DNA of 55,136 bases from positions 1 to 55,136 of the forward strand of contig JAFLCO010000003.1 of the NCBI GenBank assembly GCA_017303535.1, written 5' to 3'. Position numbers and translations under genes: made by a program. Below, piece after piece: positions 17,496-18,440 of the stretch. Below the pieces are notes generated by a model. It ran no database searches and was not told the origin of the DNA. It was given only the letters and a program-made list of their open reading frames with translations. Numbering within the stretch: position 1 is the stretch's first letter; each line of letters begins with the position of its first letter. This DNA is from Planctomycetota bacterium (GTDB lineage: Bacteria; Planctomycetota; Planctomycetia; Pirellulales; PNKZ01).

Positions 17496-17675
17496 GACGA
17501 GGTCCTCGAACTAGGGCGGGAACTCCGATGAGCAAGCGAGGCGAGAGCGCCATCATGTCATGGTCGCGAGCGCAGGAAAACAAAATCTTCGCGGCGGCGG
17601 TGCGCAACGGCAGCGAAGAAGCCGTGAGCAAGTGGGAGCCGCGGTGAAGACTCTTCGATGAACTTCCGCGAGCGC

Positions 17676-17715
17676 AAAAAAATAGGACCGTTCGACGCGG
17701 GGCGTCGAACGGTCC
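17676..17715 (-). terminator. strong intrinsic terminator, minus strand
   Basis: A perfect 14-bp stem (17685-17698 with 17702-17715, 3-nt loop) is followed on the minus strand by TA and seven T residues. There is no T-run on the plus-strand side, so it acts on minus-strand transcripts, most likely the Lys-rich mini gene upstream. Confidence 0.9.
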
Positions 17716-17909
17716 TGTCTCGTTGTTGCCGGATTTTTCCGTCCGGGGAAGCAGTGCCGAAGGTTGGGGCGAAAAAGGCCTGAAACAGGCATTATTTCAC
17801 CGCGCCACAGGCTGCTATTAGCGTCGATTCGTCGTGGGACCGAAGTCACACGTTATATACGGCATTGGCCGGATATCGTTCTCGACCGAGCTACCCGACG
17901 GAGAAGAAG

Positions 17910-17975
17910 TTACTTCTTCTTCTTCTTGGCAGCCTTCTTAGCAGGCTTGGCAGCAGCTTTCTTCTTCTTGGCCAC
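17910..17975 (-). CDS. 21-residue Lys/Ala-rich peptide
   Basis: A GTG-started ORF of 21 residues, 12 Lys, 7 Ala and 1 Pro, beginning MAKKKK and ending in five Lys. A perfect GGAGG (17987-17983) stands 7 nt before the GTG, stronger than at most genes in this window. A clean intrinsic terminator follows about 195 nt downstream and an extended -10 lies about 155 nt upstream. Composition resembles the Lys/Ala tails of histone H1-like bacterial proteins, so nucleic-acid binding is plausible, but no family can be assigned at this length. Confidence 0.6.
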   Translation of the reverse strand: MAKKKKAAAKPAKKAAKKKKK

Positions 17976-18129
17976 GCTTCGTCCTCCGAATTAAAACTCG
18001 GTGAGATCCCTCTACCGATCGTCGTGGAACTTTTGGTCGCGTTGAAGGTGACGCACAAGGCGTAACGATCGCGGCTCTCGCAGCTCGGCGACGGAGTCGA
18101 GCGATTCCCACCCTTGACAAGAAACGGAC

Positions 18130-18138
18130 ATCCTATCA
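18130..18138 (-). promoter_or_regulatory. possible extended -10 element for the Lys-rich mini gene
   Basis: Minus-strand TGATAGGAT (TGn extended -10 plus TAGGAT). A poor -35 (TTAAAC) lies 19 nt upstream. The position is right for a leader of about 150 nt before the GTG at 17975. Weak evidence. Confidence 0.25.
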
Positions 18139-18440
18139 CAAGGCCCGACGTACGGTTTAAGCGCTTGATCGATCGATCGCCGTACGCAAGGTCTACTTGT
18201 CGAGAGTATGAACCTCGTTGGTAACTTTACGCATTCACCAAATTTCTGCAACAGTATTTTTCATAATTCCTTGACTTCGACAAAGAATTTTTCTACGCGC
18301 TCCAACTCGCGCGCGTCATGAGTCAGTCCACGACGCGCTCGCGCGCGATGAGAAACGTTGTGATGAGCAATGTGTGCGCGCGACGATCAATAACGCATCG
18401 CGCGCGTCTCTCGGCGACGTTTCACTTCGCCTACCGCGCC

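Follow-up and report, generated by a model that had tools for sequence, protein, structure and literature searches.

The DNA analysed here, referred to below as the window, is a 55,136-nucleotide stretch from a planctomycete of the order Pirellulales. Its minus strand carries a mini gene for a 21-residue Lys/Ala peptide that, judged from the sequence, is very probably a real gene (Table 1). The minus strand at this site reads TTCGGAGGACGAAGCGTGGCCAAGAAGAAG...AAGTAACTTC; GTG at 17975 serves as start codon, preceded by TTCGGAGGACGAAGC, and a TAA stop ends at 17910. With the start taken as Met, the product is VAKKKKAAAKPAKKAAKKKKK, composed of 12 Lys, 7 Ala and 1 Pro. Codons 1-11 are GTG GCC AAG AAG AAG AAA GCT GCT GCC AAG CCT, and codons 12 to stop are GCT AAG AAG GCT GCC AAG AAG AAG AAG AAG TAA. 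Among all ORFs of 15-120 residues in the window, this is the only one with at least 30% Lys. Lys accounts for 2.4% of residues across seven neighbouring genes, and at that frequency the binomial probability of at least 12 Lys in 20 residues is about 4e-15. Four of the seven Ala codons are GCT, against 8% in the window genes and 16% in a ribosomal-protein stretch that included a few doubtful ORFs; as a sign of high expression this bias is only suggestive, given so few codons. Its shortness, GTG start and low complexity make the mini gene easy to overlook, and ordinary gene finders likely miss it. A sequence-only reading of this DNA had described a complete mini gene with a GTG start, GGAGG at 7 nt, 12 Lys and 7 Ala, all of which the sequence bears out. 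Its span of 17676-17990 correctly takes in the ribosome-binding site to the terminator and omits the promoter-like block and a leader of about 240 nt.

Table 1. Positions of the features of the mini-gene unit within the window.
Feature	Position	Strand	Basis
Promoter-like block, TTGCAG-N16-TAAAGT	18224..18251	minus	Genus and family alignment; most homologues of the order
Putative leader (5' untranslated region), ~240 nt	17976..18217	minus	Lies between promoter-like block and ORF; predicted ends
Leader block, GCCTTGTGATAGGATGTCCGTTTCTTGTCAAGGGTGGGAATCGCTCGACTCCG	18091..18144	minus	Nearly identical in five genomes from genus and family; recognisable in part throughout the order
Leader helix, 5' strand, GGTGGGA	18106..18112	minus	Pairs with 18006-18000; leader-swap test
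Leader helix, 3' strand, TCTCACC	18000..18006	minus	Pairs with 18112-18106; leader-swap test
Ribosome-binding site GGAGG, 7 nt 5' of start	17983..17987	minus	Sequence; GGAGGAC kept in nearly all homologues
21-codon ORF plus stop, (M)AKKKKAAAKPAKKAAKKKKK	17910..17975	minus	Sequence and homologues
3' element ACAACGAGACAG (order consensus ACRACGAGAAAG)	17715..17726	minus	Exact core ACGAGAAAG carried by 57 of 80 non-redundant homologues
Intrinsic terminator, 14-bp stem 17716-17684, then A and seven T	17677..17716	minus	Terminator scan; stem kept, with both-side changes in relatives

Positions 17660-18150 were searched at the DNA level against 57 genomes of the order, which named relatives identify as Pirellulales. 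Within the genus and family the matches were strong; in many families of the order they were clear and centred on the ribosome-binding site and the ORF. In 44 of the 57 genomes a Lys/Ala ORF behind the same ribosome-binding site could be read, cut by a contig end in one case and masked part-way in another; the figure counts ORFs read and does not imply absence elsewhere. The shared pattern is GGAGGAC, GTG (rarely ATG), AKKK and then Lys/Ala repeats, over 20-97 residues. A pattern scan across named genomes yielded 77 stretches, about 70 of them planctomycete, with the labels Pirellulales, Pirellulaceae, Mariniblastus, Botrimarina, Thermoguttaceae and similarly labelled MAGs. Five non-planctomycete matches were set aside as unrelated long ORFs. 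When the pattern search was widened to 397 genomes of the class, the gene turned up in one family belonging to another order as well, at 27-104 residues; two further matches at this level (L184, L194) were likewise unrelated long ORFs. The two closest congeners carry an identical 66-nt ORF, in an aligned region about 80% identical overall. In two other relatives (G001 and G006) the ORF differs only synonymously apart from a change of start from GTG to ATG, and G001 adds one in-frame Ala codon. The 101 homologues compiled begin with (V/M)AKKK and continue as Lys/Ala repeats to between 20 and about 100 residues (19-100 in the raw lengths, the 19 being a contig end). They average 58% Lys and 26.5% Ala, are almost devoid of acidic or aromatic residues, and between them use every Ala codon (four) and both codons for Lys; since codons 1-5 are fixed in the pattern scan, third-position variation there is partly built in. 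The ORF is not a product of chance. A lack of conservation of the Lys-rich ORF and its ribosome-binding site in relatives had been named beforehand as what would count against the gene; the comparison was run and conservation was found instead. It is highly probable that the mini gene is both real and translated.

The genomic neighbourhood is conserved on one side. Upstream, the order is lpxB, an M50 metalloprotease, an SGNH hydrolase and then the mini gene; among 20 loci, M50 is found at 12, SGNH at 11 and lpxB at 8. These and the other neighbour names are presumed identities, given on visual inspection of the sequences in the light of general knowledge. The downstream side shows no such conservation: at 7 of the 20 loci it holds a convergent Mrp-type ATPase gene, and the window's own downstream gene occurs at only one other. 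A search for tRNA or tmRNA found neither in the window.

The boxes of the promoter-like block, TTGCAG at 18251-18246 and TAAAGT at 18229-18224, correspond in relatives to AAAnnnnnTTGCA-N16/17-TACAAcTA. A strict sigma-70 scan did not detect the block. It lies about 275 nt from the ORF in the window and about 200-290 nt in homologues. Transcription would be expected to start near 18217, giving a transcript from there to 17677; the earlier proposal of a start near 18125 gives way to the promoter-like block at 18251-18224.

The leader thus delimited contains a helix just before the ribosome-binding site, supported by covariation. A GGYGRG-type stretch recurs across families and can pair with a CUCRCC-type stretch shortly 5' of the ribosome-binding site. 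Both strands change together, from GGTGGGA/TCTCACC in the window to GGTAGGA/TCTTGCC, GTCAGTG/CACTGAC, TGGTGAGG/CCTTACCG and ATGGTGAG/CTCACCAT elsewhere. When each genome's own leader was compared with those of other genomes, the summed z was 4.5 over 95 non-redundant leaders, in a control that is conservative where motifs are shared and draws on non-independent genomes; the window leader taken singly was not significant. The leaders are too variable for RNAalifold, which found no useful consensus in an alignment of 29 of them, and support for the helix therefore comes from the leader-swap test. At gathering score, Rfam has no match in the window, and below threshold only chance-like ones.

Just 5' of the ribosome-binding site, 30 of 102 leaders have hairpins with GGA in the loop, where 9.5 would be expected. 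The ANGGA sites are most frequent at -40 to -31, with a z of 5.6 against 5.0 for a control motif. The gene csrA was found in all 54 genomes searched, with 8 matches in this genome. Control of the leader by CsrA is suggested by these sites and is treated as a lead only, because the control motif is enriched about as much as ANGGA. As a separate observation, CsrA-family matches number 2-14 per genome in the 54 genomes (8 here), far above the one or two usual elsewhere.

At the 3' end, the terminator scan upheld the perfect 14-bp terminator with seven T that the sequence-only reading had reported; the stem reaches 15 bp if the loop-closing C-G is counted. Immediately 5' of the hairpin lies a near-invariant ACAACGAGAAAG element (e.g. 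L037, L047, L049), and the element together with the start of the hairpin usually occurs once per genome. Pairing between this element and the leader is slightly in excess (summed z 3.6; reversed control, 0.1), at inconsistent positions. The stretch from stop to terminator ranges from about 30 to 190 nt among relatives, and only its end is kept. The 3' segment at 17716-17909 had been proposed as a regulatory RNA. That idea is not supported by the relatives, in which the part from stop codon to 3' element shrinks to a few tens of nucleotides; the conserved part is only the last ~50 nt, namely the 3' element and the terminator. The conserved and apparently structured RNA is rather the 5' leader, from about 18217 to 17976.

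Two minor features touch on this end of the unit. Homologues of one family (f15; L185-L192, 30-103 residues) lack ACGAGAAAG and carry a different terminator, often keeping the promoter-like block; the 3' element can therefore be lost. Within the 3' segment of the window, a weaker terminator-like hairpin lies at 17790-17772 on the minus strand (GCCTGTTTCAGGC then CTTTTT), with counterparts in G002 and G003 and none in G001 or G006. Some transcripts might end there.

What kind of protein this is can be approached through known Lys-rich families. HC2 (PF07382, gathering score 40 bits) does not match the 21-mer or two other short members, and the best long member reaches 15.2 bits (E 0.024). With hist_H1_lk_Burk (NF038053, cut-off 80 bits) the short members again have no match, and the best long member scores 19.3 bits (E 0.0011). 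As the long members fall below these cut-offs, the peptide is not filed as a member of either family; low-complexity sequence would stay below family cut-offs in any case. No curated Pfam or NCBIfam family, ribosomal proteins included, matches the short peptide. The homologues have the general traits of histone H1-like proteins, being Lys/Ala-rich with almost no acidic residues; disorder is assumed here. HC2 (PF07382, NF038052) and hist_H1_lk_Burk likewise consist of Lys/Ala repeats without acidic or aromatic residues, whereas the mini-gene family reaches down to 20 residues and has its own fixed locus, leader and 3' element. In mycobacteria, HU is known with a Lys/Ala-rich C-terminal tail. 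The AKK-type composition is shared, but the mini-gene peptide has no HU fold; a Lys-rich tail is absent from the HU gene found in this genome. Protamine-like polycations are similarly small and extremely positively charged. The peptide differs from protamines in using Lys instead of Arg, in having no Cys and in being bacterial, and no relation is claimed. The KPAA C-terminal domain of AlgP/PhaF in Pseudomonas likewise consists of disordered Lys/Ala repeats and is tied to DNA and polyphosphate granules (PMC9239181). In AlgP this Lys-rich repeat tail has been likened to histone H1; polyphosphate granules depend on it for their spacing, and peptides derived from it bind DNA (PMC9239181). AlgP/PhaF, however, carry a Pro-rich (KPAA) tail on a helical N-terminal domain, whereas in the mini-gene family the whole protein is of AKKK type, down to 20 residues. 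By its sequence, the window's peptide represents a histone-H1-tail-like polycation family in its minimal form. A literature search found no description of such a family in planctomycetes; as subscription journals lay mostly outside the search, no priority is claimed.

From the ORF, its conservation, the locus, the promoter-like block, the covarying leader helix and the terminator, all legible in the DNA, we infer how the mini gene would be transcribed, translated and controlled, and how its product would bind and condense its partners. A vegetative-type promoter would yield an mRNA of about 540 nt, whose leader would fold just 5' of the strong ribosome-binding site and so make translation controllable. 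The peptide would remain in the cytoplasm and bind polyanions, most likely nucleoid DNA (alternatively RNA or polyphosphate), and would thereby help to condense or neutralise them. The family may represent a stand-alone counterpart of histone H1-like Lys-rich tails, kept in planctomycetes of at least two orders. Taken whole, a single-gene unit for a nucleoid or polyanion binder, with a vegetative-type promoter and leader-controlled translation, is the reading that we favour with some reserve. If the gene is real and translated, an H1-tail-like role is rather likely, and by analogy the peptide probably works like H1-like Lys-rich tails and the AlgP repeat tail. The earlier suggestion that it binds nucleic acid is plausible from composition, which makes polyanion binding the most likely role and cannot separate DNA from RNA or polyphosphate as the partner. 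A stand-alone nucleoid polycation is our best guess, with RNA or polyphosphate possible as the main partner. With some 12 positive side chains, the peptide may bind weakly at physiological salt.

A different partner is proposed if the peptide is an RNA- or ribosome-associated polycation, such as a tiny ribosomal-protein-like or hibernation peptide, and not a DNA binder. The smallest ribosomal proteins resemble it in size and charge, and its strong ribosome-binding site and order-wide conservation would suit such a function. No ribosomal-protein family in Pfam or NCBIfam matches it, however, even with small ones such as THX considered, and a five-fold length range of repetitive sequence is unlike a ribosomal protein filling a defined site. 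This alternative is improbable, if the strongest of its kind.

Slightly less probable is that the unit is mainly a regulatory RNA, in which leader, 3' element and terminator act, for example via CsrA, and the ORF is secondary. The swap-tested helix, the ANGGA peak and GGA-loop hairpins, csrA in all 54 genomes and the near-invariant 3' element can all be read in this way. Yet conservation is best in the ORF, as judged from the protein, and in-frame growth takes it to about 100 residues; no homologue has given up the ribosome-binding site, the control motif is as enriched as ANGGA, no Rfam family corresponds, and one family has members without the 3' element.

The existence of longer members in other families of the order could also mean that the 21-codon ORF is what decay has left of a longer H1-like gene. 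This is very unlikely: five genomes share the 21-22-residue form with little or no change and retain promoter, ribosome-binding site and terminator, and forms of 20-25 residues recur in several families. Least credible of all is a leader peptide whose Lys codons sense charged tRNA-Lys and attenuate a downstream gene; a short Lys-rich ORF followed by hairpins and a terminator has that outline, but attenuation was rejected because downstream neighbours are not conserved (and are convergent at the loci noted above), members reach about 100 residues, and the conserved neighbours lie upstream.

In the best-studied planctomycete the nucleoid is unusually condensed, and published genome searches reported HU and no histone homologues (PMC3440768). 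An order-wide tiny Lys/Ala protein would be a direct candidate for planctomycete nucleoid condensation, its natural series of 20 to about 100 residues would offer a ready test of how much polycation is needed, and in the leader there may be a translational switch of a new kind. A bolder version, which we consider doubtful, would make the separately encoded, protamine-sized AKKK polycation of 20-100 residues a core component of the planctomycete nucleoid, and the conserved leader and ACGAGAAAG 3' element of its dedicated mRNA a new post-transcriptional switch, possibly read by one of several CsrA paralogues.

Some genomes carry another Lys-rich mini gene at a separate site. G022 has two such genes (L070 and L080; 30 and 71 residues), and in G007 a pattern match to a second mini gene lies at G007:C3:208404.
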